From the NCBI GenBank assembly GCA_030141605.1, contig JAQGDQ010000445.1, positions 1 to 64,000 of the forward strand: a DNA stretch of 64,000 nt. The letters run 5' to 3'. This document shows, one piece after another, positions 8,438 to 47,470 of this stretch (its first letter is position 1; every line of letters starts with the position of its first letter). The DNA is from Tubiluchus corallicola (lineage: Eukaryota > Priapulida > Priapulimorpha > Priapulimorphida > Tubiluchidae). The position numbers and the translations under genes are program-made. The notes below the pieces were generated by a model. That model had not been told where the DNA came from. It saw nothing but the letters and a program-made list of their open reading frames with translations, and did not search any database.

Positions 8438-8583
8438 ATGAGTAGAAGAAGAAAGTTTGAAGAGTTTCCCGGGAGGAATCGCTTCTGGTGTCGTGGACGA
8501 TTAATGAGTGGCAAATATCTGAGGATCTTCTATTTTACTTTATTTCTTTTCACTGTAAATACTGCTTTCTTTTTTTATACTGA
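8438..8583 (+). CDS. app: Palmitoyltransferase coding exon 1
   Basis: ATG at 8438 gives [20 protein letters not shown] then the first membrane span. The donor GTAAGT starts at 8584 and two bases (GA) carry over. It aligns with the N-terminus of ZDHHC9 (EKLPGRNTFCCDGR). Confidence 0.9.
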
Positions 8584-11500
8584 GTAAGTATTAGAGACAA
8601 ATTACTTACAATATCATCAATAGTTAACAGCTTAGGCAACAAGTAGGATAAGTTCAGGATCCGTGTAACTTAGAATTTGCTGTAATCATTTGGATAGGGT
8701 GTCTATATGTTTGCTGCAATAGGTTTACAAAGCTAAAATTTGATTGTTATCCCATCTAGATATCTGTGTATCACTGATCATATTCGTGATTACCATAATT
8801 ATTGTGAATCGAGTTTGGTTCGCAAACACGAACGTATAGTAGATATTAATATCGTTATTTCAATGCTGAAAACAAATCTGGTGTATACCTCCCTTGAGAA
8901 TGTCCATCGAAGTTTTTCAAACTTGCTTTAAAGGAAAGCAGAATGATTTTTCATACACTACCCCTTTTTCAAGTCCGATAAAAAGTATACAGTTTAAGAC
9001 AATTAATACTGCAAAAGCGTTTTTGATAATTAAATAATAGATTAAAAACTTAATTAACAGTAGACGAACGCAGCTATTGATGACATCAGAAACGAACATA
9101 ATTTTCAACACCAAAAATATTCCACGAGCGTGTTGTACGTGTTTGCGAAAGCGATACTTGAAGTACAAACCTGCTGTAAGATATTCAGTGTGTTGTACTA
9201 AAACTAGACAAGTTTTAAGACAAAAAATTTAAATTTCAAATTTATCGCTGTGCTCATGCATGAGCTGTCGAACGTGTGTAGTTCATCACAAACTAACACA
9301 TCTCAAATGAGGGGTACATCACCTGTTTTTTGTGCAACGCATTTCCGAAATGCAGGCGTTAGTGCCCGGCTAACTAGCGAATGGTGAAATGTATGTACCA
9401 ACAAAGAACTAGTTGCGTGACTGTGAAATTGCGTTTGTGTGCTAATAATTCTTTCAAGTCTTTTTTGAAAAAAATAGTATGTCAATACTTTAAAGAGCAG
9501 ATTGTTTTAACCTACAGTTTAAGATTGGGTCCGGTTTTGCTTTAGCAATTTGAACATTGAGTTACTGCGTGTTTGAACCGAAGACAATTTATAGCAAATA
9601 CAGTTTTAATGGTTTTAATCTTAATAATTTTGTTCCAGTTGTGTATACTTTGCAAGGGAATTTTCAGTCGTTATTCCAGTAATAGGTGCCATTTTATTTC
9701 TGTTGACCGCCTGTTGTTTCTTCCTTACGGCTTGCCGTGATCCGGGGGTTGTGCCCAGATCCACGCCAACACAAGCTGCAGCCATCGAAAGCGAAGTTGG
9801 TAAGTATCATGCAGAAAAGAGAATTAATTGTATATATTAATTGCGGTGGTATAGATATACATGGATATATAACCGACAAGACTACAGTTCCAACGACGGC
9901 ATCATTTTCGGCGATCTATACATCAAACGAAGTGTCCGGACCCACAGATTTGCCATTGGGGATTTATTTTTCGAAATTTTTTGCAAAACTTATACCTCTT
10001 ATTTCTGGAGAACGGGAATGTGCCTGGCATGGTGCCCGCAATGGTTAAATAGTCCGTTCAACGGTGGGTGTTATTATAGTCATATTTAGAATTCGGGGGA
10101 GGGGGAGTGGGCGGAGTGGGGTGGGTGGTGTGGTGTGGTATTGATGATGTGGTGTGTGTGGTGTTGGTTGAGTGGTGTGGGTGGCGTGGTGTTTGGGTGT
10201 TGTGGTTTGGTGGTATGGTGTGGTGCGGTGTGGTGTGATGTGGTGAGGTGTGGGGTTGGTGTGATGTGGGTTGTGTGTTCATTTATGCACAAAATTCTCT
10301 TTGCGGGATTTGGCTAGTTTATAATTAATACTCACTCTTTTATCTCCGCCACGATATTAATGAAATGAAAATGAAATGAATAAAATGAAATGCCCAAATA
10401 AGGAATAAGGGTGACACAGTTTTTATGCGCAGAGACCTAGTGCGCATTCACAGGTTTGACAAAAACAGCCGCATCCTGCAACCCGGCATCAGATCCGGTA
10501 CCTGAGTATCGATCACTTCATACTAGATTGTGGCATATTGGCATGCCTTCTTGGCTATTCACACATCTCACGGAACCATCTTAAACAGCAGCTACAAACA
10601 CTTTCTTTTACTCATGCTTGGGTTAGCCTACTTCCTTGCGATGTAACTCTATAAACAAGTCTTCTCTGTCGTGAAATATACAAAAACTGCCATTTACTCA
10701 TTATGACGCAAGCAACGCATGTTCTAAATTTCCTCGAAAATTTGGATTCTGTGAAAGCTATAAAAGTCGCATTTGTAGACAGTAAGCTTATTACCATCAT
10801 TTTAGGAGCAGAAATCGAGGACTATGTACAATGTTCGTGCAATATTGATAATCAGTTGTTGAATCTATTGGTAGTTGTCATTTCACCCCTCGTGAAACAT
10901 GGCAATGTCAAACATTGTACGGAGTGGTTTAAACTAACCAACAGAATGCATCAGCCGAAATGTAGTACTAATGTTAGTACAATCTGCACATGCGCAAAAC
11001 ATACCTGTAGCTAGACTCATGGAGCTAGTTTTGAAAAATGGCTGTAGTTCGACTATTAAAGCAACTAGATTTGACATATGAATGGTTCGTCATAGTAGCA
11101 CTTCATATCTCGAAGCTGTTGTGAATCAGAGCACAAAAAACTCAGTAAGCGAGTAACCCAATCTTCGCATTCCGGACTAGCTAAAAATGTTATCCAGTGA
11201 AACTTACTGTCAGACCAGTACGCACTATAATGGATTTTTGATGATTTATGTTTATAGCTCAAATGCAAAAAATGTTTAAGTTTCGAAACAAGCTTCCCAC
11301 CAAAACTGTAGAGGTAAATGGACATCCAGTGGAGATGAAATATTGCGTTACTTGCAAAGTTTTCCGACCTCCAAGAGCATCCCACTGTAAGCTGTGTGAT
11401 AACTGTGTGGGTAAGTTAGCAGTTCATGTAGTATCCATCTAGATGAACTCATTGGTTTCACTATAATCATCATCATTACTAAACGTTATTATAGCTGCTG

Positions 11501-14500
11501 TCGCCACCATCATCATCACCGCTACACCACACCAGCATAAACAAAATCACCATCGTCAACATAAATACACGAATGTCACCGCTATCATCAACATCATTGC
11601 CGTCGTCATGATCATCATTTTCGTCACCCCAATTTCTATCGCAACAACCACCACAGCCACTACTGTCACCGCCAAAGTCATCATCGTCATTCTACCAGCA
11701 TTTGTCATAGTCAAGGTCCTAATCTCAGATAAACACATTCATTTAAATGTAACGAAAATCTGAAACGAGCTTTCAATTCGAAACTTCATAATTTACTCAT
11801 AATTTGTATCTTTCAGGATTAAATTTATACACTACATCAAGCTCTTTTCATTGCAGATCGTTTCGATCACCATTGTCATTATACTGGCAACTGTGTTGGG
11901 AAGAGAAATTACCGATATTTCTACCTTTTTATACTCTCCATTTGGGCTCTCTTTACGTATATTCTCGTATGCTCCATCATTCACCTTGTTTGCTGTAAGT
12001 TTACGTATCACGCAGATTTACACCTGTTTGCCATCGTATACTATAATAACCTTCTTAAAGGAAGACCGGACGATTGTTTAGACTCAATCTCATCTTAATT
12101 TACTGCCCAAAATAAACATTTCTTGCCTACAAAAGTTAACAATTGTTCCTTGGATTATTAGTTTAGAAAGTTAATTAACGGCAACCGAACACAGCTATTG
12201 CTTACAGTATGTGCAATGGCAGGCATCTTCCCTTGCGCAACAAACACATTTGAATAAGTGCTACAGTACTGCTTAAACGCGTGATGTCACGCAAAATAGG
12301 CATTACATCATATGACGTCAGAAGCTAACACAGCAGTCAATGATCATGGTTATCACGGTACCGCCTTCTATTTGTCGATCACACGAATGTGACAAAAAAG
12401 CGCCGTTGCCAATCTTAGTAGATTCACTGAGCCGTGCGTAGCTTTGAAAGTTTAACGAAATTTGAGTATCCGAGGTAATTATTATTTAATCTAAGCTTTG
12501 ATTTAAAAATAAGGGATTGTAGTTTTCAATATTATAGAGCATTCTTTATTCTGACCTCGTGTTTACACAATCTTCCGGTTTTCCTTTTTGTTACACCTTT
12601 GTGTTGAATAAGGACGAATAAGTTCGCATCATCTTCTGTTGCTTGAATAAAGAGTCAAGGGTGCAACGGGCCCTGCATGCATTTCAGGGGGTATCCAATC
12701 AAATAGCAATTTTTTTTAGAAATTTCAAATTTTTGCTCTTAAGTTAGTTGTACAAGCTGGCTTACAGTCTCAGTTTTAAAAAAAAATTGTCATACCATGT
12801 TCTATATACAGTAACAAATCTTGGAATTTGTTGAGATTTTTTAGTAATCAATGTTCTCCCCTTTTTTAGTTTATTCTTGCCCTCATTCGCCAGAATAGTG
12901 ACGTTATTAACAGTGGCGGTTAGTTGAAATTCTAAGAAAATGTTAAGGCATTATTTTAATACTGTGTAAAACGAAACAAACACGTGTAATTTTAATGTTC
13001 CAGTTTGTAATTGTAATTTTAAACAAACAAACATAGGTAAGTTGTTCATAAACTTGTTAAAATCCTATACAAAACTACTTTTGCTTACTAATAGCCTAAA
13101 TTATCGCAGCTCAAGCTTGATCCACTCACAGTAAGCATGTGACAACTGACAACAAACGGTGTGAGCGACAGTACATTTTCTACCTGGGCTCAGACATGTG
13201 CGCATGTGCAGCTCCACAGTACTTATACACGAGCCACCACTGGTTAATATGAAGACCGTTGTTCCACTCGTTTGGAATTAGGGCACGAGAATTTAGCCAA
13301 TTTTAATTGCAAGTTCCTTCAATCCCTTATGAAATTTCCTTCCTTATACTTATGAAGTGAGACAATGGTAGATAACCTGTTAAATATGCCTAATGATTTT
13401 CAAGATAATATAAAGTTAAATTCACAGTGTGTTTACCAGTTGCAACAGCACTAATGATTTTCAGCATGAAACAGTGAAATTCAGCAGATAAGCTTCTAAT
13501 ATTTATGAAAAAATGGGTTTACCAATTGGGGGGTAGTGGGTGACATAAAATCAAGAAGCTGACTCTGTGCATAACCAAACTTGTGCACGCCAGAGGTCAG
13601 CACGAGGTTTGACGTGCTCGTATTTCTTCTGTTATTCAGGTGGCTTATACATCACACATCATTTTTCTTTTCACAGTGTCAAAACAGATTGGGGCCAGGG
13701 AGGCAACTCGACATATACCATCAAGATATCCTTTGTTAAATTCTTATCTAATGCTTCTTATAATTAGTATCTTTAACTAAAATGATTTTGTAGTTAAAAC
13801 CTGATGATCATTACGTAAATAAGTATTTATACCGACTGCATTGTGTAGAATATTTGCTACAATAATTTTTTTCTTGACTAAATGTTTACTATTGTGACGG
13901 CGATTATCAGTTTTGTGGCATTGATTCTTATCTCACTGTTGGTCTTTCTGCACACATCGTTGGTAATAAACAACCGAACAACTATAGAAAGTGTAAGTAA
14001 CAATATCAGAAAAAGAATGATGTCAGCTATGAATATTTACTAGTTGTTGTGGCATTTGTTGTTCTTTAGCTTTCTTACCTAGAGGTATAGTTAATGATAT
14101 CACTAGCGTTTGATCAACATTTTTTAATGTAATTAAAAAATTAACTGTTTCTTGAGTTCATAAATTGCATCTTTTAATCATAGTGTGAATCAACCGTTGC
14201 TTCAACAGTTGGTTCTGTTAAAAGCTAATTATATTACAAACTATGAAAAGTCACACGACGTTTTCTAGAAAGAATAAAGGTCTTTCAACCCACTGTCAAG
14301 CAGAAGATGCTCTTCCAAATTTCCTATACAGGCATTCAAGGCGAATCACAATCGTGGCAGTGCTATTGCCTATAGAAAGTATAAGAAAGGCTGAATGTAA
14401 GTTCGTCATACTCAGTACTTGAGTTGCAACTTGCACAGTAGGTGCTAACTATTGACAGCCATTCACTTTGTATGCATTTCGTACTACTTTCATTTGCCAC

Positions 14501-17500
14501 TATTATTTAAACAACTTTGAAAACTCTACTACATATTTTACAATTGTTGAAATCTTGCTTTGCCTGGGCGTGCCCCAAGATACTATGGCTGTGGACACTG
14601 AAAATGGCGCCATTACAAATCGACGTTTACCATGTTTTTGGAAATCGTGTATAATCAGTCATTCTGAATCGTAGCTCGATCCCAAAAAGGCACAACCACC
14701 TGAAGCAACAAGTTTTAGAGCTTCATCTGTTGTTTTTACTACGGCATTATTGTCTTTTTGCATCTTCTTCCACAGTTAGTATTCGAAAGGCTATTGATAA
14801 GGTCTTCGACCACTGCCCAGTCGACAAAACTGGCTGGAGTTAAGGGACTTTGCGGTAACTTCTCCAGTAACGTGAAGGGGTGTAAAGGTGTTTTGATTGT
14901 CAAAAATGACACCAGCGAACCTGCATATACAGCTGTCATGATCATTGCAAAAACCCACCACCACGAGATTAGTACTCGAGAAGCCACATTATTGGGTAAA
15001 TAAAAACATTCCTCTGGTAAAAATGCAGCCATAACACAGCTGGAGTAATAAGTAACAGTGTGGCGTTCTTCAATGTGGTCTGTAACTGTTGAACACTTTT
15101 CCAGTGTAAATAAAGTCAACATCGGGTATAAGGTACTCGTTTATAAGGGACATTCACTTATAAGGTACCACCAACACCGGTGAAATTTCGTTTGTATTTT
15201 TTATCGGTTTTTAATATTATTACGAACTTAGGTAGTTCTTATACAAAAAAATGATCCTTGCAAATGTGTACTCGCAAAGTTCGAAACCTAGCTAGGAAAT
15301 CGTTTAATTCGCAACAAAAAAAGAATGAAAATAAGCCTTTGTCGAAACTGCTAGTACTAAATACAGAATTGACATCAATTCACAGCAGTGAAATATGAGT
15401 AGACACGATATTGTTGCTATATTTTCAGGTGCGAAAAATTCATGCCACAGAGGACGGGACACAGGTGGAAAACCCCTTTACAAAAGGCTCATGGTATAGG
15501 AATTGCTTTGACGTACTGTGTACACCAATACCACCAAGGTATCACATTGCAGTACATCTAGTAATTGTTTACTACGGTGATTAAAGTTACTGATGCCTGA
15601 AATTTTGAATCACTTTGGTGTGGGTCATACTAGTTGTCAATTTGTCAAACAGAACAAGAATTCTTCTCTTTTTGCACACCCACTAATGTGCCACTAATTT
15701 GCTTTGTAAATTTTTCTTCGTGTTGAGCATGTCGTCTTGCCACGTTTATCACTTGCTGGTCCCCTTTAGTCATATAAATAAAAACAGATTTTGAATTTTC
15801 TTATCAAGATCTTATTGGAAATCAACCGTTTATCCTTTGTTTATCCACTACGACAGTGGATAACTCCACAACAACGGAACAGAGAGTCGTGGTGGTAATC
15901 AAAAACCTGTAATGTGGGCATAGGAGTGGTGACCTCTGGATCAAAGGTCACAGCAGCAGGATCCAAAATGTGAGAGTTAGGGTGAATGACTTTGTCATTC
16001 AACTCCTCCTACAGTACTGGACCAAGAGTGAAAATTCCTAGGGCTTTGAGTTAAATTCCAAATTTTTTCACAGGTATTTAGGTGGGGTAGGTCTAAATTA
16101 GGTATTTTTCGGAAATTGGAGCCTAGGAAAATTCGGAGTTGTGAGCCAAAATGTGAAAATTAGGGCAAACGGATTTGTCGCCCACTTTAAATGCTTAAGC
16201 ACGTGTGGGCAAGCTGGTGGATGTAAAAGTGCAATAAGGATTTTTCCGAGAGTGGGCGTAGCCAGGTCACGTGACATTGGTGAAAATGTATAAAATCGGG
16301 GTCTGCTCGATAACTGAATAAGTGCAACAGCTAGAATAAAAAAACTTGCAGGGTAGACACCTAACCCAGGTAGACACAGAGCGGTATGAGAGTGGTGAGC
16401 TCTGGGTTAAGGATCACAGCAGCAGGACAATAAATGTAAGAATTAGGGCGAATGACTTGTCCTTCAGGTTCAATTCCAGGATCGGACTAACATTCACTGT
16501 TTATGCATGTATATGTAACAGGGCAGGACTAGCTGTATATTACGTATTTTTCAAAAAGTGGGCATGAGCTGGTCTCTCGACATAGGCGAAAGCTTAAAAT
16601 GGGATTGCTGTAAAATGGATTTCCTATGACTTAATTCAGCAATTGCAAAATTATGATCTTAAGACGAAGACCAGGTCAGCAAAGATTTTTCACAGTTGCA
16701 ATTTTGGTCATAATGCAGAATCTTAAGTTTATGACTTTGTGATAAAAACGGTCAAGTTTGACATTTTTATACATGTATGTGCAAAAGTGATTATACGTTA
16801 TTTGCTTAATTACATGTTCCATTTAATTTAGGGAAGCGTTTTTTGTTTCAGCAATTTAGTCTTGGAAAATGTCTGAAATAAGGTGAGTGTGTTAATAACC
16901 GTATGGTCCTATATTCACCTCTCACTACTCAAATTACTTGATTTTAAAGTTGTTAATGTGTTTAATATTGTATTTTTTGACGTGTGAATTAAAATTTATA
17001 GTTCATAGTTCATAGAAATCCAAATCACTCAGATCCATCCATTTGCTGTTAGTAAACAAAGCGCATGCGCGTACTAATGCCATCTGTAATGAATTACTTG
17101 TGTATAAGCGGTAGTTAACAATTAGTTGACAGTTATGCATGCCTGAGATATATCATTGTATATACAAGTAAGTGGTGCATTGACAGATAATCACATAATT
17201 CATATTCGTAACTATTTAAAAAAATTTTCACTCTTTAAGGCTCACTCAAAGTCGTACTTACATATTATGTTTTCCTTTCTCAACTTTCAGGTTTATTGCT
17301 CTTATACCATTGCTATTATTACATTTACTTCATCCTCATTTACATTAAGTCATCTACAGAAGCATGAATAACTATAATCATTTTTTCACTTAAGTTAGGT
17401 GAGTGTGTTAATGACCGTATGGTCGTACACTCACCTCGCACTACTCAAACTATTTTTTTTAAAGTTTATTAATGTGTTTGATATTGTATTTTTGATGTAT

Positions 17501-18055
17501 GAAATAGAATTCATAGTTCTGAGTTTTTGCGATAAAGGAGGTCTAGCTTGTGATATAAAAATCGTTGGTTCGAATTTCAAGAATTTCAAGGAGACCAAGA
17601 TTTGTGTCCTTCTTTCGACAAATTTCATGCGAAATACATGCTAAAAACTGATGGAAACTAAATAATCATCTAAGATCATGCTAAAATGTGCACAAGTTTT
17701 TGACACTAGAGATGCGCATCATCCAATACACTTATAATGTAAGATTCAATATGGCTGCTTTCACAATATCGTTGTTGACACCATTAAGAAAATTACGTTA
17801 CGTATAGCTATTGCATTAATAGATACCATGCAAGGGTTTCATTCTTTTGTGATTATTTAGCAACAGTTTTCATTAGTATTTTGTACAGTATTCTGCCATT
17901 GGACCGTGACCCCCTCTTCTGGCGTAAGCCATTGCATTACACGGCTTGAGAGGTATCTTGGATTAGGTTAAGTCTTTTATCAAACTGAACTCATGTATGC
18001 TTATGTATTCTACACTAAATGTGAAATTTTTTCTGTTTGTTACAGGGACAGATGA
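8438..18055 (+). CDS. app: DHHC palmitoyltransferase, Approximated/ZDHHC9-14-18-like (gene span)
   Basis: Protein S-acyltransferase that attaches palmitate to cysteines of membrane-associated proteins; Drosophila Approximated acts in Fat/Dachsous signalling. Coding exons: 8438-8583, 9639-9799, 11258-11410, 11857-11994, 13677-13734, 13911-13992, 15429-15538 and 18046-18055, 858 bp, 285 aa, all joining in phase. Visible parts: N-terminal [12 protein letters not shown], four membrane spans (about 29-48, 57-78, 176-198, 219-236), DPG (83-85), cysteine-rich domain ([20 protein letters not shown] on), DHHC 157-160 with catalytic Cys160, [17 protein letters not shown] (242-245) and [17 protein letters not shown]. 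Odd points: DHHC is followed by HYT where the family has PWV; the cytoplasmic tail stops right after [10 protein letters not shown], far shorter than relatives; the exon 5 donor (GTTAAA) is weak. Introns hold MITEs, simple repeats and an antisense receptor exon. Two AATAAA signals follow at 18081 and 18091. Confidence 0.92.
8930..9543 (+). mobile_element. MITE family B, copy 1 (palmitoyltransferase intron 1)
   Basis: Starts AAAGGAAAGCAGAATGATTT and ends GGGTCCGGTTTTGCTTT. It has about 614 bp and no coding capacity. Inverted and direct copies lie at 23958 and 42254. The ends resemble family A (AAAGGAA and CCGG cores). Confidence 0.8.
9639..9799 (+). CDS. app: Palmitoyltransferase coding exon 2
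   Basis: Acceptor TGTTCCAG ends at 9638 and donor GTAAGT starts at 9800. Encodes the second membrane span and [12 protein letters not shown], with the DPG motif found after TM2 in this family. Confidence 0.92.
9800..10084 (+). other. Unassigned open stretch in intron 2
   Basis: Two overlapping plus frames stay open here (9737-10048 and 9841-10089). They use ordinary amino acids but show no family I recognise, and neither fits the palmitoyltransferase. It could be a diverged transposon exon or chance. Confidence 0.3.
10095..10280. repeat. GT-rich simple repeat (GTGGT family)
   Basis: Imperfect GGTGT/GGTGG tract on the plus strand in intron 2 of the palmitoyltransferase. Open frames over it encode only H/T/P or W/C/G-rich peptides and are artefacts. 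Confidence 0.9.
10420..10770 (+). pseudogene. LINE C-terminal fragment (degenerate)
   Basis: One frame reads [20 protein letters not shown] then [20 protein letters not shown]. This resembles the C-terminal zinc-knuckle region of non-LTR elements (…DHFLLDC…R…L). Frameshifts and stops interrupt it. An A/G-rich ATGAAATG tract near 10360-10390 precedes it. Family assignment is tentative. Confidence 0.4.
11258..11410 (+). CDS. app: Palmitoyltransferase coding exon 3
   Basis: Acceptor TTTATAG ends at 11257 and donor GTAAGT starts at 11411. Encodes the first half of the cysteine-rich domain: [20 protein letters not shown] then NCV, with the Cys/His zinc ligands in place. Confidence 0.95.
11462..11700. 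repeat. CAT/CAC-rich degenerate trinucleotide repeat
   Basis: Imperfect ATC/ACC repeats (ATCATCATC, CACCATCATC) in intron 3. The minus frame across it is a low-complexity artefact. Confidence 0.8.
11857..11994 (+). CDS. app: Palmitoyltransferase coding exon 4 (catalytic DHHC exon)
   Basis: Acceptor TTTTCATTGCAG ends at 11856 and donor GTAAGT starts at 11995. In the phase set by exon 3 it reads [20 protein letters not shown] then YFYLFIL and the third membrane span. Catalytic Cys and the C-x5-C spacing are kept; the near-invariant PW after DHHC is replaced by HY. Confidence 0.93.
12057..12587 (+). mobile_element. MITE family A, copy 2 (complete, intron 4)
   Basis: Starts AAAGGAAGACCGGACGATTG and ends ATCTTCCGGTTTTCCTTT, about 531 bp. 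It is the reference copy for the family in this window. Confidence 0.85.
12588..13676. other. Rest of palmitoyltransferase intron 4
   Basis: AT-rich sequence with no recognised repeat or coding signal. The acceptor at its right end (CTTTTCACAG) is good. Confidence 0.5.
13677..13734 (+). CDS. app: Palmitoyltransferase coding exon 5
   Basis: Acceptor TTTTCACAG ends at 13676. The frame reads [20 protein letters not shown] across the next junction. The donor GTTAAA (13735) is weak, but the phase fits exon 6 exactly and the product leads into the fourth membrane span as in relatives. Confidence 0.7.
13911..13992 (+). CDS. app: Palmitoyltransferase coding exon 6
   Basis: Acceptor GATTATCAG ends at 13910 and donor GTAAGT starts at 13993. 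Encodes [20 protein letters not shown] then NRTTIES: the fourth membrane span and the family TTxE motif. Confidence 0.88.
14752..15039 (-). pseudogene. IR-like ionotropic glutamate receptor exon (antisense, intron 6)
   Basis: On the minus strand, a plausible acceptor (ACTCCAG) at 15040 opens about 95 codons. They read [52 protein letters not shown]. This is the pore loop, third membrane helix and start of the S2 lobe of an ionotropic glutamate receptor; the helix end [11 protein letters not shown] stands for the family's SYTANLAAFLT. The divergence resembles invertebrate IR receptors. No other receptor exon was found nearby and no clear donor, so it is either one exon of a gene nested antisense in the palmitoyltransferase intron, or a remnant. 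The frame itself is intact. Confidence 0.7.
15100..15190. repeat. Fragment of a pogo-like MITE
   Basis: Contains GGTATAAGGTACTCGTTTAT and TTATAAGGTACC, close to the terminal segment at 49420-49460 (GAGCGAGTGTCCCGTATAAG, inverted sense). Short and uncertain. Confidence 0.35.
15429..15538 (+). CDS. app: Palmitoyltransferase coding exon 7
   Basis: Acceptor TATTTTCAG ends at 15428 and donor GTATCA starts at 15539. In phase it reads [20 protein letters not shown] then [16 protein letters not shown], matching the family segment QNPYSxGN…NCCEVLCGPLPPS after TTxE. Confidence 0.9.
15915..16040 (+). repeat. tRNA-derived SINE-like repeat, copy 1 (intron 7)
   Basis: Shares GAGTGGTGA(g/c)CTCTGG, GGTCACAGCAGCAGGA and TTAGGGTGAATGACTT with 16375-16500. 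Confidence 0.55.
16375..16500 (+). repeat. tRNA-derived SINE-like repeat, copy 2 (intron 7)
   Basis: Has an A-box-like stretch (GTGGTGAGCTCTGGGTTAAG) and a good B box (GGTTCAATTCC, near 16468), so the pair is probably a tRNA-derived SINE. A neighbouring segment (AGTGGGCGTAGCCAGGTCAC near 16251 and AGTGGGCATGAGCTGGTCTC near 16555) is also duplicated. Confidence 0.55.
16882..17000 (+). repeat. Hairpin-bearing repeat, copy 1
   Basis: AGGTGAGTGTGTTAATAACC GTATGGTC…TTCACCT forms an outer stem (AGGTGA/TCACCT) and an inner stem around GTAT. It is followed by ACTACTCAAA and a GTGTTTAATATTGTATTTTT stretch shared with 17397-17500. Confidence 0.65.
17397..17500 (+). repeat. Hairpin-bearing repeat, copy 2
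   Basis: AGGTGAGTGT…ACACTCACCT is a perfect 10-bp outer stem; GACC-GTAT-GGTC is the inner stem. Likely LINE 3' ends by similarity in shape to 30598, 58493 and 59850, but no coding part is attached. Confidence 0.65.
18046..18055 (+). CDS. app: Palmitoyltransferase last coding exon
   Basis: Acceptor GTTTGTTACAG ends at 18045. With two bases from exon 7 it gives R-D-R then TGA. Total length is then exactly 286 codons. AATAAA at 18081 and 18091 follow within 40 bp. Confidence 0.7.
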
Positions 18056-18080
18056 CAAAAATGGCGTGTATATAATTGTA

Positions 18081-18096
18081 AATAAATGTAAATAAA
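18081..18096 (+). terminator. Polyadenylation signals of the palmitoyltransferase
   Basis: Two AATAAA hexamers, 10 bp apart, 26 and 36 bp past the stop codon, followed by an AT-rich stretch. Confidence 0.6.
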
Positions 18097-18109
18097 GAAA
18101 CATTTTATA

Positions 18110-20048
18110 TACCTGTTATATTATTTATTAGATTTTTTTTAAAAACTGTTAAGTATGGGAAGTAGTGTCTGCAACAAAACTGAACATTACACTAATTACG
18201 ACATTATAATGGATAAAGTGCTACTAAATCAAACAAATTACACAGTTTTCTAATTACAATCTCTAATTTGACATTGTGAAAGAGTATAAATAGTACATAA
18301 ATTACTCAGCCGTGCAATGCCTATCATTACAGTTAAGACAACTAAGCTTATTCTTATATTAGCGCACCTATATTTTACAAAATTGTTTGCACCGTGCAGA
18401 TCGTGGACTTGCATACGTAGCATACACAAAGCAAAGTTGCTTCATTTTCTCTCTGAAGAAGAGTTCTCATATTTATAAAAAAGTTGAAAATCTGTTGTTG
18501 TGCGTGACTAAAACAGTTCTGAATCGTCTGCTCACTTACATTGCTCTTATTTGCTGCACGATGTTTACTCTTGTATAACAAATCCGTTATACTATGCTGC
18601 CATCTAATGAGGAAAAAACCAACTACTTTAACAAGTAACAGATCCTAAGCGCATCAAATTAGGTTTACCAGAGCTCTTCCAAACTATAGATGTGCTATTT
18701 AATAACAGCTTTTGCCGTTTGACAATAACTTAACTTAGTATTTTGCTTTGAAATTTATTTTTAAAGTTTTTATTCTTTACATAATCTTAAATTCGAAGCA
18801 CTTAACTCTATAGAGTACAAACTTTCGCAAGCAATTTCAGGATTGGATTGGTGAATATTAGTTAAACCATTGTCTGTCCCTATTAATCTAAATTAATTCA
18901 GTTTGTTAAATACACACACAGAAGACACCTGCACGCATTTCAGACATTACACTGCACAGCTATAGGTACAATTGAATGCTAATTCTCACTTTTTATATTA
19001 TTTTAATGCCACCACGTGACGTGACAAACTGGTCGTGTCCTTATATGAGCCTATTGAGCAAATTATTAAAACAAAAACTTGCTTTTTTAAATAAAGCAAG
19101 CAGAAACGGCAAAAATAATTAAGTTCTACAATCTCTCATTCTGTTCCGTTTACATATAAGTATAGGAAGTATTGTCGCTTGTCTTTTTTCACAAACAACT
19201 CTTGATTAATTATTCAATTAATCGAATGACTCATTCACACTCTTGAATGCTTAAAAACAATTTGTTTGTGGACAAACTTCGACCGGATATCAGAGAAATA
19301 ACTTCTAGAGATCACATCCGAGCACTAGCACCCTCTGCTGTTTCTACTATCCCCAGAATGCTGAGAAAAATGCAAAGCACTACAGACAACTTCTTTGAAT
19401 GGTGAAAAATGATCAAAAACAGAAAAGTTGAAAACGATAAGAGAAATTGGAGCTTCTTTATTAAATGCAGTAAAGACTTTACAGTGAAATTTACAACACA
19501 ACAACATTGCTTTTTTGCAAAAATCCAGTAAGTTCACACCATTAACATCACTTTAAACCAATATATCACATAAACTCAACAAACCTCTTCTGGGCTATTT
19601 TTAATAGCTGAAAATTTCAATTGCCCAAGAAAAGCACCACTTTTCATTTTCTAATAGTGTGAAAAACTAATTATTAGTTCATACAGGCAGTTACTTTTAT
19701 CCCACGTCAAGTGTTGTTAAGTATGTGCAATGGCACGGGGATTTCAAACTGCTTTGAACAGTAATCTGTCGGCATTTAATTAACCTTAAGATTAATTAAC
19801 CTTTGTACATCATACAAAATAGCTGTAATCAAATGCTTTATATTTTATACGTACAGCTGCTACTGCTAGTTGATGCACAGCAAGAACAAAAACTGTTAGT
19901 AGCAAAAATTGCAAAATCACAGTAATGCTTTCTTCCCGCTTGTGTTTTGTCCAAGAAAAGAAATTAGACCGAACATAAAACGCAAATCTTTTCTTAAATA
20001 CAGAAAAAAATCATTGTCAAACATACCAAAAAAAGTAGTTTTTTGTTG
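18110..20048. other. Convergent 3' region between the palmitoyltransferase and CIZ1-like genes
   Basis: AT-rich, no recognised coding sequence. The 3' UTR of the minus-strand CIZ1-like gene must lie in the right part; minus-strand AATAAA candidates (TTTATT on plus) are near 19456 and 18122. Confidence 0.5.
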
Positions 20049-22847: not shown

Positions 22848-23070
22848 TGCCAGTGGTGTTCAATAAAACAAGCAGCTAAATGAATATGCATTGAATATGC
22901 AGGACAAGTACGTTAAAGTAGAATCACGAAGCTTGCGTGTTTACATGTCTGTCGTCACTGCAATAAAACAAACTGCAAGTTACTTCACTATAATTTCAAA
23001 AAAGTGGCACGTAATATCCCACTTTATAACATTACAAAATGTTACATAAATATTAATTGATTTAAATTTT
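22848..23070 (-). promoter_or_regulatory. Presumed promoter/5' UTR of the CIZ1-like gene
   Basis: Only about 220 bp separate the start codon from a family A MITE. No clear TATA box or initiator was identified; assignment rests on position. Confidence 0.35.
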
Positions 23071-33410: not shown

Positions 33411-33479
33411 CAGCTTATTTGCTTCTATGCTGTGGCTTCAATATGTCGAAGGAAGCCAAATAAGATGGAAGCAGTTGCT

Positions 33480-33546
33480 GTTTTCAATATTTTAGAGCAT
33501 TCTTTATTCGGAACTAATGTTTGCACAATCGTCCGGTTTTCTTTTA
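33480..33546 (+). mobile_element. MITE family A, 3' terminal fragment
   Basis: TTTTCAATATTTTAGAGCAT …CAATCGTCCGGTTTTCTTTT matches only the last ~66 bp of copy 2. Confidence 0.75.
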
Positions 33547-33839
33547 AGTAATGTTACCTACTTTGCCAGTTGTTGTTCTGCGAATAACATTTTAACGCAG
33601 AAACGAGAAATATTTTTTAAGAAATATTTTGTGAACTGTACCATGAGCTAAATAATAAAATTTCTAAACATAATGCTGGCTAAATAAACCATTAAATATA
33701 TGAATATTGCATGGAATTGACTTCCTGTTGTTTATTTTCAGATCATGTAAGTTTCTACAGAAGACTCTTGATGAAAGTTGGACAAAGATGAAGAAGACTA
33801 CGCATTTTCTTTAAAACTAGATGAAGATTTGACAGCAAG
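33547..33839 (+). promoter_or_regulatory. Presumed 5' UTR/promoter-proximal region of Dachsous
   Basis: Between the MITE end and ATG 33840. A TTTATTTTCAG acceptor-like site ends at 33741, so the start codon may sit in the second exon, with a 5' UTR intron upstream. No TATA box was seen. Confidence 0.4.
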
Positions 33840-36800: not shown

Positions 36801-37496
36801 ACGATGTACAGAACAGCTGTTTCCGAAAGTTCGGCTGTAAACGATTCAGTCATACAAGTTAAAGCTACTGACACAGATTCCGGGCGAAATGGTCACGTGA
36901 GTTATTCACTAAATGGAGCTCATGATAAGTTCATCATCATTCCGGATACTGGCTGGATTGTCGTGAACAGTCAGCTGGATAGAGAAAAGCAAGATAAATA
37001 CCTGATGACGATCGTGGCGTCCGATCATGGTAATCCACGTAATTCCGCTCGTGCAACATTGGAGGTCGTACTCGAAGACAAGAACGACAATCCACCTCGT
37101 TTTGTGCAGGATTATTACGATTTCTTCATTATGGAGAACAAGCCGGCAGGTTCCGTAGTTGGAACGCTGCATGCGACGGACTCAGATCTGGGTAAAAGCG
37201 GAACGGTACATTATCAGTTGTTGCAAGACTATGAACACTTCGCAATCAACTCAAAATCGGGCGAAATTGTTACCAAGAGCATTCTAGACAGAGAAGAGAG
37301 AGCTCAACATCGAGTCATGGCCATTGCGAGAGACCTCGGACATCCCAGCCTGGAAAGTCAGGTGGAGGTGATTATATCCGTGGGAGACGAAAACGACAAT
37401 GCCCCCAATATCACAGATCCCATCCGCAAACGAGGAACAGAGATGGCGCTCGTGTCGGTCCGGGAACAAGCCGTGTCTGGAGTTCGCGTTTTTCAG
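33840..37496 (+). CDS. ds: Dachsous coding exon 1 (signal peptide, EC1-EC11, start of EC12)
   Basis: ATG at 33840; last codons GTTTTTCAG then donor GTATGT at 37497. 1219 residues in one exon. Splices in phase 0. Confidence 0.95.
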
Positions 37497-40400
37497 GTAT
37501 GTCTAATGATTATTTTAATAGCTTGGTAGGATTGACAGCGAGTGAAAATGTTTAATTAGGATTATTTGGCAATAAACAAACAAATTAATATGTTGGAAGA
37601 TTCCCCCTTGATTTAGTCTTTAGACACTTCCAAAGCCTGTAATTACTCTGCTTTTTTAACATTGAATTGCAAATGTTACCTGATTTCAAATTTCACCTTT
37701 TTCTAACATATTTTCTATCAAACTTTTTAAAATTAAACTCTGATTATACAAAAACATGATTATAAAGTTTACGCTTGAATTTTGTAGTGCAAATTACATT
37801 TGGGTACTGGATTAGCTTCCACAAACAAATTCTTTGTGTTTAAATGAAAAGTAAACTTTCCGGGAAAAATGTTAGAAGGATTTAGAAATAAGAGTGTGAT
37901 AAGGGCCTGGTGTGATTAGTGAAATCATTTTAAAATCATCATCATTTGGGTGTTCCCTTTTTGAACACCCATTTTTCCTCTGATGACGTCGTTCATCTGC
38001 AGGAAATGGCAGTGCACTGTCAATTTCCGTCAAAAATATGATTAGTTTTCACAAAAAACTAGGTAGCTAATTTTGTGATATTTTTGCGTGAATATTAGGT
38101 ATGCTGCGGAAGTCGGAGTTAGTTTAAGCAGCTTGCGCTTACAGAAAATCGCTAAGTCCACCGCTCGTCATAATTTTCAAGTGAACGGTGGCTTCCACTG
38201 CTAGTATGAATTAAGCTTTGCCTTGTAATCAGTCTTTGTTATATTTTTCTAAGTTTAAGTGACAACAGTAAAATAAAACCAACCTGCTAAGTGACGTGTC
38301 CTTTCCTTTAGCATTCTAGAGCAGAGGTGTGCAAATTATCTGACTAGCCGGGCCACATTAAACTTCCCCGCAATTCCTGTGGGCCACAGGCAGTTTGATC
38401 AAGGAGCCAAGTACAGAAGGGCCTAATAAGGATTTTTTTGCATCCGACCTGCGTACATCATTACTACTGCACTCAAGAAACTATTTTGGAAGTTATTAAA
38501 ATTTATATTACAAACCATGTATTTCTACTTTCAGGATAGATAGTGGTAATTTCATTACAATGCATATTAGTAATGTGTATCACACAGTCTGTGTAGTACA
38601 GTGATATTAAGCTACAGCCGTCTTGTAAGGGTTAATGGCATCCAATCTAGTAGAAAAAACTACCCGCACTATCTTTGGGATCGTGGCACGGACTTCAGCT
38701 GGATACACTCAATTAATTGCCCGGGCCGCACTTTCATTAGGTTGACAAAACTCTTTGCGGGCCGCACAAATTCTCTCGGCGGGCCGCAATTTGCACACCC
38801 CTGTTCTAGAGGACTGATACAGGATTTTCCGTATGCGAATCTTTGACATTTCGGGGAAAGCGTTCCCTGTCCAGCAGACGACGTGAATGAATAACTAGAT
38901 GACACGTTATGTCTTCAACTTCCTAATAGCCGTAACTTGTTACAGGTTTTAGCTGAAGATCTCGACAGCGACGACAATGCGCAGCTAACCTACTACATTG
39001 AAAGCGGGGCTGTCGTGGATGGAACTCGTTTATTCGCCATTAACAAGATGTCTGGAGTTGTCTCCACCACTTCTGCTTTGGACAGAGAGCAGGTAGAAAA
39101 CTTCCCTATTTATAATTTGCGGAATTCAATGTGAAAAATTTTTATTTAACTTAACCTTTGTCTTCATTTTGCTTTGCTGATTGCATTTTCTTGTTTGCTG
39201 CTGGCATACTTTGAGTTGCCTGGAAAAGCTAAAAATTTACTGAATCGGACCGTTGCCACTAGTGTGAACATTCTTTATCAGAAAATGCGAATTCGAATCG
39301 AATTTGTGATTTTGGACCTCGACCGCAAATTGAGTTTGAATTCAGTTGTAAAAGTGTTCGAATAAACTTTCGAATCCTAACAGAAATCGCAAGTAAATTG
39401 TGCTTTATCACATCATGTTCCAAACATTTTAATGATGAAGAGCGTATGTAATTAAGTGCCGAATTATTCAAATCCATAGCGTTAGGATCGAATCGAATTT
39501 AAAAAACCTATTCGAATTGAATTTAAACATCCGATGCTCATCCCCAGAATTAAATTCAAATTTTAGAGACATAAACGTGTCAGCGCTTGCAATGTGAATT
39601 TTTTCCTGTTTTTGTAGATGGAAGTTTACGTATTGGATATTAAGGTCCAGGACAATGGCAAACCACCACTTTCCTCGTCGCTCACGGTACAAGTTACGGT
39701 GCTGGACAGAAATGACCGCAGCCTGCTAGAAACTAAGATGTCGTTTTCTGTCGCCGAAGATGCAGATGTCGGGACAGTTATTGGTACCGTCGGCGCCACC
39801 GACAGCAACTCCGACAAGGACATCATGTATATGATCACAGATGGAAACACACTAGATACCTTCGATATCAACAAAGCCAGCGGCGAGCTGTACAGCATCC
39901 GCCCAATGAATTATGGAGACACGCCCTCTTTTCGGTTGCAGGTGCAAGTTTTCGACTATTTTGTGCAGAATCCGTTGAGTGGTATCATCCAGGTGGAAGT
40001 GGAGGTCATTGACGTCAACAACAACGCACCGGAGTTCGAAGTCGATGGCATCGAAGTTTCGGTCAGAGAGACTGTCGGCATCGGCACCGTTGTGCACACG
40101 TTCACTGCCACCGATCGCGACTCCGGGACAAACAGCGTGCTGCGCTACAGCATTACCGAGGCGGAGCCGTTGGGCGGATTTTTCGCTCTCAATCCGATCA
40201 GCGGCGATTTGATCGTCAGCAAACCGCTGGATGCGGAAACGACGCGGAACTTTCGACTGTTTGTGACCGCAACTGATCAAGCCGACGATGTAAGCAAAAG
40301 GTTATCTACAACAATCACAGCTACAATATTTGTCGAAGATGAAAACGATAACGCACCAGAAATCGTGTCGCCCTCTGCCGTGTCTCTTTTCGAAAATGCC

Positions 40401-43400
40401 CCTCCTGATTTTCAAGTGATGCAAGTGGTTGCGTTTGATAGAGACAGTGGCGAGAACGGAAGAATTTCCTATTACATTGATTACCATCACCAAAAAGGCC
40501 TGTTTATTATTGACCCGATCTCTGGTATTTTGAGCACCAGAGAAAGTTTGGACCGTGAAACTGTAGCTCAGCACAGGCTGACCGTTGTAGCTCGGGACAA
40601 TGGCGTCCCGTCCCGCTCAAGTCATCAGCTTCTCATTATAGACGTTGTTGACGTCAATGATCACGTACCTGTGTTTACACGCGATGTGTACAATGTCAGC
40701 TTGAGGGAGAATAAGCAGCCTGGCACGTTCGTTGCTCGTGTGACAGCTTCCGACGCCGACAAGGGCCTAAACGGGGACGTGTTTTACTCCCTATCCACGC
40801 TTGTGGCAGACGTCCATATGCCATTCAAGATCGACAGCCGTGACGGAACCATAACCAACACACGCATCTTGGACAGGGAAGTAAGGGATGTTTACACAGT
40901 TGTAGCGTATGCCCACGACAGAGGAGAGCCTACAAATACCGGTTATGCAGTTGTCAGAATTTACGTGGAAGACGAAAACGACCATACACCGGTTTTTGGA
41001 GATTCTTGCTATCCGCTTAGTGTGCCAGAGAATGTGGACCTCCACTCGGGCATCCGTTCCGTAGTAGCCATCGACGCAGATGCCGGAGACAACGGCCGTA
41101 TTGTATACGGGATAGCAGACGGAAACACCGACGGCGCATTTAGGATAGATCCCGACTCCGGCGTATTATCTAGCGTTGCTTTGGACAGAGAAACCACTTC
41201 CGCATACCAGCTTGTAATAACCGCACAAGATTCGGGGGTGCCGCCACGAACGGGCTCCTGTACCATTGATGTCACAGTGACCGACGAGAACGATAACCCG
41301 CCCAAATTCACTAAAGAGGCATACACTGGCAGCGTAAGAGAAAATGCCCCAGTCGGTACAAGCGTGCTGACCGTCTCGGCCGTGGACAATGACCAGTGGG
41401 ATAATCAAGCAATAATCTACACTTTGAGCCTCAGCGCTAGAGGTTTGTTTACTGTGGACAGTGAAACTGGTGTGATCACGACAAACAAAGTGCTGGACAG
41501 AGAGAAAGCGACGGTGCACAGATTCGAAGTGGTTGCCATGGATTCTGGATTGTACTCTCGTCATACGTCGACGTCGTCGGTGACGGTTACTGTTGATGAT
41601 GATAACGACAATCCTCCAGTGTTCTCGGCGTATCCATTTCGTGCTCACGTACAACCGACTGTCAGCATTGGTCAGCTGATAATACAGGTATGTTGGTTAA
41701 AATACTTATACTGAAAAATTACATCATCCTACAATCAATCGCTCTTGAGTTTAGCAATCACTTTTCTTTTAGAATGTATTAAAGCAGGAGAAAATACTCC
41801 TAATTAAAGCTTAGAAAGTTCGTCTTCACATTTTTTACTATTTACACATTGTCTTGTTGCATACAGGGCTTGTGTTAGCAGTTAAATTTTAAAATTTAAA
41901 CTCCCGCAATGACTGTTAGGTGCAGCCATTTTGACATTTGACAAGTTAAGTTTACATTGCACAAAGTTTGAAAAAAATCAGAACGTTCACAACACACACT
42001 TCACTAACTAAGGAAAAGTGTAAATTACTGTATCTTGTCAATAATAGTAAAAAATACATCGTGTTGGTGAGCCAGTGGTGCACACTGGGAAGGTGAGTCA
42101 GTAGCATTTTACCAAGTAGAGCAAACGTTTTAAACTACCAAGCATTTTCTTTTTTAGTTACATGAGTGTTTCTAACATGTAATGCTATGTGATATATCTT
42201 TGTTTTGAAACTTCTGGTGTAAACTTAGTAGTATTCCCCTTTCTTCCACCTTCAAAGAAAGCAGGATGATTTTTCGTATACTACCCCAAGTTCGATAAAA
42301 AGTATACATTTTAACGCAATTAATATGGCAAAGCGTTTCTGATACTTAAATAATAGATTAAAAACTTAATTAACGGCGGGCGAGCTCAATTATTGATAAC
42401 AACACAAACTAACATAATTTTCAACAACAAAAGTATTCCTTGAGCGTGTTGCACGTGTTTGTAAAAGACAAAATTGAAGTACTATGCTACTGTAAGAGAT
42501 TGAGCATGTTGTAATTAAGCTCAGCAAGTTTTAAGATAAAAATTCAAATTTCAAATTTACTGCTGTCCTCACACATGAGCTGTCCAACGTGTGTAGTTCA
42601 TCACAAACTAACACATCTGAATTGAGAGATACAGCACCTGATTTTTGGTGCAACGCATTTCCAAAATGCAGGCGCTTGTGCTCGTCTGACTAGCGAATGG
42701 CGATGAGCACATACCAGCGAAGAACTAGTATTGCGAATGCGAAATTGCTTTTGTGTGGTAATATTTGTTTTACGCGAGTCATTATTTAAAAAAAAAATAG
42801 TGTGTTTTCTTTCAATATTTTAAAGAACTGGTTGTTTTCACCTACAGTTTAACATTGGGTCCGGTTTTGCTTCAAGCTTTTACCTATATTTGTGCAATTA
42901 GATGAGCACTTGAAACTGGCCATAGGTGTCGCCACCAATTGGACATCATTTTCTTTTAGTTAAGTTAAAACCGAGTGAGCTGATCTCGGTGAAATGGTAA
43001 TTAAAACTTCACGCTGGCATGCCAGTCTTGTTTTCACTCTTTGCTTTCCTGATTCGCCATTTTGTAAACTTCAGGTCGAAGCCAGTGATGCAGACGAAGG
43101 TACCAATGCAAACATCGTGTACGAACTCACGCAAACAAATCCTCTATTTACAGTTGACAGGACTCGTGGTGACATAACCGCAAAGAAGAGCTTGCTACAG
43201 CATGCGGGCTTGCACGAGTGAGTATTTGTCGACGTTCGTTAATGATTAATTAATAATTAATGTTCGTTAATAATTATGTTATATTTGAAGCGAAGTACAG
43301 CCAAGTGGTCAGGGCATTGTGCTTCACAGCTGAAGTTAAAGCAAGACGTCTAAAATATTCGCTCTGAGCGGTTAATAATTTACAAATTATTCTATTGTAA

Positions 43401-46400
43401 TGAACTTGCCATTTGAAAATGCTGGAAAGTTATTAATTAGGACTGAATTAAAACAAGGGTCTGAGTGGTCTAAGTCAATTATTAGTTCTCTTAAATACCT
43501 TAAGACAAGATTGTATGTATTAATCTAGCATTGTGTATGGACATTTTATTTAATTAAATTAAATTAAATTAATTTTAATTTATAATTCAATATGAAATGG
43601 TATAATCAGCATTCCAGAGTGATTTTCTTTATCACAGTTATGTTCTTTTTACGTCAAGCATCAGAATTGTGAGATTTTGTTATTTTGTTTACTTACAGAC
43701 TGGACGTACGAGCTACTGACCAAGGCAGACCACCACTGAGTACTGTTGGCAGAGTCCTCATTCAAGTAGGATCTGAACCAACGTCTGAGTCACTCGTTTT
43801 TACGAAGACCGAGTACACGCGCGAAATTGTGGAGCATGATCGCGGGAACGGGGTTGTCGCACAAGTACGTGCAGTGCCCGGTCCCGCACTGTTCACAGGC
43901 GTGGAGTATTCCATTATCGGCGGTAATGATAACAATGCATTCCAGATTCACTCGGTTACTGGTGCAATACGCGTCCGACAACCTGTTGTCGTTGACAGGG
44001 AGAAGACGCCGGAGTTTAAATTAATCGTCATGGCAACGTCGAATAGGGATAGTTCCAAGCCGGTGTCCAATTACACGGCAGTTTCTATCAAGTTGAGAGA
44101 CGTGAATGACAATACTCCGTATTTCACTCACACGACGTATCACGCTTTCGTGGAAGAAGGCAACAGTCGTGGCGTTTACGTCGCCGAAGTTCTCGCTCTA
44201 GACGACGACGAGGGAAGAAACTCGGACATCTCTTACAGTATCGTCGACGGCAATCTTGATCGAGCGTTTTCCATTCTCGACAGACGCAATGGCATTGTCC
44301 GGACTAATCGTCAGCTTGTTAGATCTACACATGGTTCCTACGCCCTGACCATCAAAGCCATGGACCATGGTCAGCCGTCGCGCAGTACCACCTGCCATCT
44401 GTTGGTGACAGTGTTGGACAAGAACATTAACCAGCCGACATTGTTTTCGAGTCGGCAGGCCGTGCACATTAGCGAAGACGTGCCTGTTGGAACGCTACTA
44501 GTTACCATGACGGCTAACGATGTCGATATCTATCCAAACATCTCTTTCAGTTTAGCGTTCGAACGAGGTCAGTATACTGACATAGACAAGTTTACCGGAC
44601 GAGTTCTGCTAACAAAACCATTGGACAGAGAACGGTTAGCCGAATTTGACGTTGCCGTCCGGGCGTCTGACACGGAATCAGAAGTCCAACGCAATTTGAA
44701 ATTCGTCGTGGACGACATTAACGATAATCCTCCGCAGTTTATAGAAGACAATTACAGCGTGGTTGTTCACGAATCCAGTCAGACGTCTGGCACAACCTTG
44801 CTGACTGTTTCTGCCAAAGATGCAGATGTGAATGAAAATGCTGAGATCTCCTACAGTTTGGACGCAAGCCCAGAGTTGTTGAGGTTATTCGCGATAGATT
44901 CTCGGACCGGTGAAGTCTCTACAAGGACAAGTTTATCGTACGATCCAAATCGACCGGTGCTGCTTCTTAATCTCATTGCCACTGACCACGGCACTCCTCC
45001 ACTGTCGGGTACGGCACCTTTGCTGATTACGATTGTAGAAAGTAACCGAAATGCACCAACTTTTACCCTGAGTTTATATCAAGCTCTTGTTCCAGAAGAT
45101 GCCATTCCTGGCACCAAAATTCTGAATGTTAAAGCAGATGACGCCGACTTGTCGTACAATAATAACTACGTTGACTACAGAATAATTGGCAATGAATACA
45201 GCGACGTTTTCGCTGTCAATCGCATGTCGGGCGACGTCATGTTACTACGTAGGCTTGACAGGGAAACAGTGGAGAAGTACTCGCTGGCTGTTGAGGCTAA
45301 GGATCACGGTACACCGCCACAAAGTTCACAAGCTCTAGTAGAAATTATTGTAAATGACGTTAACGACAATCCGCCCGTGTTTTCTGACACGTCCTACGAA
45401 GTCACCGTCATGGAAAACTTAAAAACGAAAACGCCAATATTTCAAGTCAATGCCACGGATAGGGACAAAAACGAAAACGGCAACGTGCGCTTCCACATTG
45501 CTTCCGGCAACGTCGGCGACACGTTTGCTATAAATCAGAGCAACGGTGTTCTCAGCGCAATAAATGGGTTGGACTTTGAGAAGCATTCAGTGTATAATCT
45601 AATCGTAAAAGCGGTTGACGGCAGCCTCACTCGTCCTCTGTCGGCAATTGCCGTCCTGAAAGTGGTAGTCGACGACGTTAACGAATTCGCGCCAAAGTTT
45701 CACCGCAGCTACGTAGAATATGTACACGAAGACGTAGCCATAGGTTCTCGTGTTTTCACCGCTCATGCTACGGATGCTGACCTTGGTATCTATGGAAACG
45801 TCGAATATCAGCTCACTCGGCAGTCTGATGCTAATGTTTTCAGCATACACCCGGAGACCGGCGTGGTGACGACTAATTCACGTTTAAGTTACGAGAAGAA
45901 GAACTACTACACGATGACAATCGCAGCCGTAGATGCTGGCGGGTGGAACGACTCGACTGAGGCTAGCGTCAATTTGATAAGGGTTGACAAGTATGCCCCG
46001 GAGTTTACGCAGCGAGAGTATAAGTTTGAAGTTCCTGGCAATGCTAAGGTTGGCGATGTTGTCGGCCGTGTGAAAGCATCAAGCAAGAACAAAGATGCGG
46101 ATGTGCAGATCTATTACAGGTTCACTCAAAGCAGCCAATATTTTGCCATTAACGAAACCTCCGGTGTGATAACGGTCATTTCTGCCTTTGAAAAAGCATT
46201 TGCCCGGAGGAAACGAGACGTCAGAGGCGGAGCAATAACTCTCGTCGTCCAGGCTCATTCCGGAAAACAGATGTCAACGTTTAGTGGCAGTTTTGTAGTT
46301 GTCCGGATAAAAATAGATTACTATTGTGAAGGTTGTGGCATCGGTAGTCACCATTCTATATCTGCCGTAGCAGAGGAGCAGGAAATGGTCAGTCCGCTGG

Positions 46401-47470
46401 TCATTGGGTTAGTTGCTGGATTGACGACACTTGTGGTTATCCTCGTCGTAGTTGCCTTTGTTGTCTATCGGGTTTACAAGCAGCGCAAGAAGCCGTCATC
46501 CAGTCACCGGAGATACCAGAACCGGTTTAGCGTTGAAGAAATCTGCAATTCTCGCGACGGCTCGAGAACTAGCCTACCGGCCGGCATTCCAAATTTCAAC
46601 AACTTCCACAGCGTGGTCAACGTAACGAACAACCTGAACGTCACTCGACATTCGGACGTGTCGCATTCGGCTTCCAGCGGCAGAGGTTCGGCCGAAGATG
46701 CGGACATGGAGGACGAGGAGATCCGGCGGATCAACGAGACGAGCAGCGTACCGGATTCCGGAATGCACGTGGATGACGACACCTCCTCTGAGGCTTCTGT
46801 CCGTAACACTCAACAGTATTTGGCACGGTTTGGAATCAACACCACAAACGTGCCAGCCAGCCCGCCGGCCGGCAGCGACGACGGTGACGGGAGCGAGAAT
46901 AACAGCATGGACATCAGAGACTTGATGTATCCGCACGTGACGGATACGAGTAGGTGTAACAATCCTACCATTTATGATACCCTTCGCAGCAGCATCGACG
47001 GGTCCAGGCGTGCCGACGCCCATTATCCCAGCTGTGAAGAGGAACTTCCAGGAAACTATAATTGGGACTACTTATTGAATTGGGGCCCGCAGTTTCAGCC
47101 CATGGCACAAGTATTTCAAGAGATCGGCCAAATGAAGGATGAACCAAGCAAGACGAGTAAGCCAAAGCATGACAGTTCAACGCGACTGCACCAGTCATCA
47201 GCAGCGATAGCCGGTACTGCCACACCAAAGACAATCATGGGAGCCACTCAAGTGTATAACCTATCTCAGCAACCGAGGTCCTCTCTTGGCTATGCGTCGA
47301 GCGAAGATTCGATTCCGGCGTCGCCGACTTACCAAGCTCCGGCGTTATCTCACTTAACGACGCCGGTGAGTATGACTTCGCACAGTAGTTACGTTCCCGC
47401 TCCCGTGTGCAGGCCTCGGGCCATTGCCATCGAGGGCGTGCACGGCTCCGAGCCGGAGTTTGAAATATAG
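33840..47470 (+). CDS. ds: Dachsous protocadherin (gene span)
   Basis: Giant cell-surface cadherin, ligand of Fat in planar cell polarity and Hippo growth control. Coding exons: 33840-37496, 38946-39092, 39618-41687, 43075-43217 and 43699-47470; 9789 bp, 3262 aa, all phases agree. Signal peptide MVLAQKQRTSVVVFLCVLSL then CYGQ. I count 27 cadherin repeats from the DxND/DxNDNxP strand ends, the number typical of Dachsous; EC4, 5, 7, 12, 19, 21, 23 and 25-27 have degenerate calcium motifs. One membrane span (LVIGLVAGLTTLVVILVVVA, about 2905-2930) follows a short CEGCGIG linker. The ~330-residue tail carries SGRGSAED…DEEIRRINE, PDSGMHVD and YNWDYLLNWGPQFQPMAQVF (about 3124-3143), all recognisable in vertebrate DCHS1, and this decides Dachsous over Fat or other protocadherins. 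Odd: RRKRD (2842-2846), a furin-like site, in the last repeat. Length is close to human DCHS1 (about 3300). Confidence 0.97.
37497..38945. other. Dachsous intron 1
   Basis: AT-rich. Holds a hairpin-forming GGGTGTTCCC…GAACACCC near 37950 and the complete hAT-like MITE at 38322-38803. Confidence 0.7.
38322..38803 (+). mobile_element. hAT-like MITE, family C, complete, with 8-bp target duplication
   Basis: Ends CAGAGGTGTGCAAATT and AATTTGCACACCCCTG are inverted repeats. Both sides carry the same 8 bases, TTCTAGAG (38314-38321 and 38804-38811), the duplication length of hAT transposons. No transposase is encoded. Confidence 0.93.
38946..39092 (+). CDS. ds: Dachsous coding exon 2 (middle of EC12)
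   Basis: Acceptor TTGTTACAG, then VLAEDLDSDDNAQLTYYIES to SALDREQ; donor GTAGAA. 49 codons, phase 0 at both ends. Confidence 0.92.
39250..39570. repeat. Dispersed TTCGAAT-rich repeat (Dachsous intron 2)
   Basis: Many copies of ATTCGAAT/GAATTCGAAT words (AATGCGAATTCGAATCGAAT at 39284) in both orientations. A similar stretch lies at 53240-53400 (AACTGAATTCGAATTCGAAA). Probably a MITE or SINE family; ends not defined. Confidence 0.5.
39618..41687 (+). CDS. ds: Dachsous coding exon 3 (end of EC12 to start of EC19)
   Basis: Acceptor TTTTTGTAG, MEVYVLDIKVQDNGKPPLSS onward, ending …GQLIIQ at donor GTATGT (41688). 690 codons, phase 0. The internal ATG at 39618 is not a start. Confidence 0.95.
41915..42180. 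repeat. Dispersed repeat D, copy 2 (Dachsous intron 3)
   Basis: Matches 5815-6060 over GCAGCCATTTTGACATTTGA and AAATTACTGTATCTTGTCA. Confidence 0.6.
42254..42872 (+). mobile_element. MITE family B, copy 3 (Dachsous intron 3)
   Basis: Starts AAAGAAAGCAGGATGATTTT and ends TTGGGTCCGGTTTTGCTT; same orientation as copy 1 in the palmitoyltransferase. Confidence 0.8.
43075..43217 (+). CDS. ds: Dachsous coding exon 4 (middle of EC19)
   Basis: Acceptor AAACTTCAG, then VEASDADEGTNANIVYELTQ to AGLH plus two bases; donor GTGAGT at 43218. Confidence 0.92.
43290..43350 (+). repeat. tRNA-derived SINE head fragment (Dachsous intron 4)
   Basis: GCCAAGTGGTCAGGGCATTG TGCTTC resembles the D arm and A box of a tRNA. 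No B box follows in the expected place. An AATTA-rich simple repeat lies at 43550-43590. Confidence 0.45.
43699..47470 (+). CDS. ds: Dachsous coding exon 5 (end of EC19 to stop: EC20-27, membrane span, tail)
   Basis: Acceptor TTTACTTACAG ends at 43698; the first base completes the exon 4 codon (E), then LDVRATDQGRPPLST. Stop TAG at 47468. Confidence 0.95.

Follow-up and report, generated by a model that had tools for sequence, protein, structure and literature searches.

A probable lineage-specific ZDHHC9/14/18-family paralogue, multiplied by segmental duplication, beside Dachsous in Tubiluchus corallicola

Drosophila Approximated (App), a DHHC palmitoyltransferase, acts in Fat/Dachsous signalling according to excerpts of two papers (PMC13104975, PMC6370246), and an excerpt of a third places Bombyx app on chromosome 22 (PMC7379679); none of these excerpts mentions a linkage of app to ds. 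A protein encoded near Dachsous (ds) in the window studied here (the whole stretch of 64,000 nucleotides that was analysed, the opening 64 kb of contig C1867) aligns colinearly over its full length (residues 4-287) with human ZDHHC9 (PDB 8HF3), which belongs with ZDHHC14/18 and Approximated. An earlier note on this DNA had reported the two genes as complete and linked on the same strand, and had left it between chance and an old neighbourhood; our literature search on app-ds synteny returned nothing relevant. Searches of this 343.5-Mb genome indicate that the DHHC gene is very probably a lineage-specific, fast-evolving app/ZDHHC9/14/18 paralogue that has been multiplied by segmental duplication.

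The DHHC gene and its relative on a second contig

Exon-by-exon rebuilding of the DHHC gene (8438-18055, +) gave eight exons with intact splice sites and an unbroken 289-aa reading frame without internal stop, so that the gene is complete, as claimed earlier, with start and stop exactly placed.

8438..8583, +, exon 1: ATG; FPGRN..GR.M N-terminal motif; TM1
9639..9799, +, exon 2: TM2, DPGVVPR
11258..11410, +, exon 3: cysteine-rich domain, first half
11857..11994, +, exon 4
13677..13725, +, exon 5: 49 nt, followed by an AT-AC U12-type intron
13890..13992, +, exon 6: TM4, TTIE motif
15429..15538, +, exon 7
18046..18055, +, exon 8: TGA stop; no long C-terminal tail

The ends of intron 5 (13726-13889) are AT-AC, and its donor (ATATCCTTT) and branch region are of the U12 type. 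The predicted protein matches the Pfam DHHC domain (PF01529, E=1.2e-36), and a check by eye against ZDHHC9 found every zinc-ligand Cys/His and the DHHC motif present, while the TTxE motif after TM4 is kept in exon 6 as NNRTTIES. Retention of these three features suggests that the window paralogue is probably a four-pass acyltransferase that is catalytically active. At the same time, the protein carries HYTG after DHHC instead of PWVG, and it ends shortly past the PIPPR motif.

The best PDB match is human ZDHHC9 (E=3.6e-78, against 3.8e-40 for ZDHHC5), with 266 bits for ZDHHC9, 141 for ZDHHC5 and 100 for ERF2. The N-terminal motif is common to the window gene, ZDHHC9 and a second gene described below, and is unaligned in ZDHHC5; considering this together with 266 versus 141 bits, 9/14/18 is favoured over ZDHHC5/8, and the family assignment made earlier holds, with ZDHHC9-type relatives nearest by bit score. 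(A ZDHHC14-like query served as search bait only.) Shared with ZDHHC9 are the FPGRN..F.C.GR.M motif, the zinc-ligand cysteines, DHHC and TTxE; the window gene differs in having HYTG for PWVG and several copies and in lacking the long C-terminal tail, and its identity to ZDHHC9 is 45%.

The genome-wide DHHC search yielded a second family member, on contig C1279, which shows 64% identity to human ZDHHC9 across 281 residues, has DHHCPWVGNCVG intact and keeps PWVG, and which was found in one copy when the genome was searched with the full window protein. Identity of the window protein to this second member is 49.5%, and to ZDHHC9 44.6%. The two genes differ in PWVG, in identity to ZDHHC9 and in copy number but share their exon layout, including the AT-AC U12-type intron before the TM4 exon (C1279 about 14824-18677). 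We had considered using this intron to mark the 9/14/18 clade and dropped the idea, as a U12-like acceptor region is possibly also present in a ZDHHC5/8-like gene.

A tree of eight sequences placed the window gene inside a ZDHHC9/14/18 plus ZDHHC5/8 group (support 81/93), with a terminal branch of 0.65 against 0.21 for the C1279 gene; it recovered the DHHC20/C4 split and ZDHHC5/8 and did not recover a 9/14/18 clade. Monophyly of the window gene, the C1279 gene and ZDHHC9 against ZDHHC5/8 was neither supported nor rejected (AU p of 0.333, with few reference sequences in the tree), and a tree of 13 sequences had long branches and poor resolution. A DHHC tree, proposed in the earlier note as a way of telling an orthologue from a duplicate, thus shows the window gene as a long-branch duplicate without resolving the 9/14/18 clade. 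We do not regard the window gene, which is diverged and present in four copies, as orthologous to app, since the conserved app/ZDHHC9/14/18 gene sits on C1279. The C1279 gene is the likely app orthologue and, should this animal have such a Fat/Dachsous role, would be the better candidate for it.

The duplicated block and its nested receptor

Four near-identical copies of the DHHC block are present in the genome, one in the window and the others on C1181, C1921 and C867. A DNA search gave full-length matches on C1181 (100% over 861 bases), C867 (98%) and C1921 (97%).

1..18426, no strand, duplicated block: inverted near-copy on C1181, partial copies on C1921 and C867
5543..5629, +, broken DHHC paralogue exon-6 remnant: one in-frame stop; from another paralogue
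14299..15131, -, ionotropic-receptor (Lig_chan) pseudogene: antisense inside DHHC intron 6

Window 1-18426 matches C1181:128502-110001 in inverted orientation (C1181:110001-128502 on the other reading) at 99.1%. The C1921 copy is 96.4% identical to window 3048-15628, with further, rearranged pieces that reach 18438, and the C867 copy is 95-97% identical to window 7015-13259. Position 18426 was tried as a breakpoint with C1181 and rejected, as the homology on C1181 stops at an N run, which is an assembly gap. Every copy sits at a contig end or close to one, the window itself starting at a contig end inside repeats. C1181 and C1867 terminate at the identical base in opposite orientation (window position 1 and C1181:128502), as would be expected if the two ends met at the centre of a large head-to-head palindrome that broke the assembly. 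A few of the copies could be assembly duplicates, and the ds-linked copy could be the source of the others. Older, decayed fragments of the DHHC family occur at window 5543-5629 and on C1944, C2010 and C623, the last with exons 1-2 and a stop.

Several repeats were seen in and around these copies: a tandem array of 51 copies of a 28-bp unit at window 2647-4064, a repeat of ~370 bp at window 17150-17525 with at least 35 more copies genome-wide at 90-94% identity, and LTR-retrotransposon-like open frames at C867:116300-122800, upstream of the block copy on that contig.

Pooled divergence among the DHHC copies is 0.64% in exons and 1.61% in introns (p about 1e-4), and the coding sequences of the window and C1921 copies differ by seven synonymous changes (194 sites) and two nonsynonymous changes (676 sites); in the other two copy comparisons the changes, mostly nonsynonymous, are too few to judge. 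The window paralogue is under purifying selection, which also suggests that it is probably active. In C1181 and C1921 the flank upstream of the gene is more alike (0.2-0.3%) than the gene itself, so that homogenisation may have occurred at different times in different parts of the block.

The receptor in the DHHC intron is broken by stops in the window, and the C1181 and C1921 copies are likewise broken. Ionotropic receptors (IRs) are the protostome chemosensory family of iGluRs (PMC2924276); the receptor here shares their Lig_chan domain and has an intact, intronless relative of 455 aa on C2010 but, unlike IRs, the DHHC-intron copy is a truncated pseudogene. Next to the C2010 gene is a remnant of DHHC exon 6, the two being oriented to each other as in the window, and C623 has a receptor fragment next to DHHC exons 1-2. 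The simplest account would be that the DHHC paralogue was copied repeatedly with its nested receptor, and that one or other partner decayed in some copies. The genome as a whole holds at least 150 Lig_chan matches, mostly intronless frames of ~470 aa in tandem and inverted arrays (on C1556, C344, C788, C1241, C225, C654 and others), a large ionotropic-receptor expansion.

Dachsous and the genes beside the block

The Dachsous gene (33840-47470, +) has five exons and encodes 3262 aa with a single terminal stop; it is complete, its start and end falling exactly where the earlier note had put them.

20052..22859, -, zinc-finger gene between DHHC and ds: 936-aa open frame, CIZ1-like C2H2 finger
33840..37496, +, Dachsous exon 1
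38946..39092, +, Dachsous exon 2
39618..41687, +, Dachsous exon 3
43075..43217, +, Dachsous exon 4
43699..47470, +, Dachsous exon 5: last cadherin repeats, transmembrane helix, intracellular domain

Pfam, run on a first exon assembly that differs by a few residues at two junctions, found 26 cadherin stretches (about 26-27 repeats) and no EGF or LamG domains, and the protein has one TM. In a PDB search the first four repeats matched human protocadherin-16 (DCHS1) with 278 bits against 186 for FAT4 over the same stretch. Repeat number, the single TM and DCHS1 as the better N-terminal single-stretch match than FAT4 are all Dachsous/DCHS1-like. As in fly ds, TM and intracellular domain lie in the last exon, but the intracellular domain is about 330 aa here versus 436 aa in the fly (PMC11634027); an excerpt of the same paper describes intracellular motifs B, D, E and F as conserved to vertebrates. 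Just upstream of ds is a tandem array (32168-33408) of 19 copies of a 66-bp unit, and NUP160 lies almost entire in one 1376-codon open frame at 53457-57584 (-).

The DHHC gene and ds are indeed on the same strand with one gene between them, the intact zinc-finger gene (ZNF) on the opposite strand. Searches with both an end of ds and its intracellular domain found ds once genome-wide, and the ZNF was also found once, so the remaining copies of the block were found without them. We propose that the app/ZDHHC9/14/18 paralogue was multiplied within a segmental duplication that spans at least 12-18 kb, nested ionotropic-receptor gene included, and one copy of which adjoins the single-copy ZNF, Dachsous and NUP160.

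Meaning of the linkage

How real is this multiplication, and how real the junction? The 99.1% identity to C1181 and the matching contig ends would fit haplotigs of one locus, with a single paralogue in the window, but this reading is disfavoured because ds and the ZNF are not found on other contigs; three further copies exist, two of them differing by 3-5% with rearranged pieces, and we consider it very improbable. A misjoin of the amplified block to the ds contig, which would make the linkage itself an assembly artefact, could be argued from the window's beginning at a contig end in repeats and from all copies lying at or near contig ends; as the window has zero N and the sequence is continuous across 18.4-20 kb, we hold such a misjoin to be very improbable.

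If the ancestral app/ZDHHC9/14/18 gene had stood beside ds, the window gene would be its diverged resident and the C1279 copy the one that moved away. The shared strand, the single intervening gene, the intact and constrained state of the window gene and the exon structure common to C1279 are consistent with this, but it is the slowly evolving gene that is located elsewhere, and the ds-side copy lies within a repeat-rich amplified block that ends near 18.4 kb. Fly ds (2L) and app (3L), which we take to be unlinked, count against it, as does human DCHS1 (11p), presumably unlinked to ZDHHC9/14/18 (X, 6q, 1p), and an old neighbourhood appears highly unlikely. Also very improbable is the reading that enzyme and nested receptor were amplified as a unit and that the enzyme is under selection for a new role, such as acylation of the expanded chemoreceptors, or for a local role tied to ds.

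Chance, rather than an old neighbourhood, is thus the more probable of the two explanations first offered: the linked copy is part of a segment that was amplified recently and that recurs on contigs where Dachsous was not found, and the DHHC-ds linkage is most likely a coincidence. As the window gene is not the app orthologue but a paralogue that was amplified recently, a functional or ancient linkage is unlikely, and a role in Fat/Dachsous signalling is implied neither by the gene's proximity to ds nor by its sequence. Given that C1279 is only 45.8 kb long, the true orthologue may yet be linked to ds at a longer range.

These results correct a tempting inference, in which a family-level match beside a pathway gene resembled functional linkage; the genome-wide check instead shows that the neighbour is a paralogue of a recently multiplied kind and that the likely orthologue lies elsewhere. 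The block with its nested receptor offers a small case, open to dating, in which two unrelated genes were amplified jointly.
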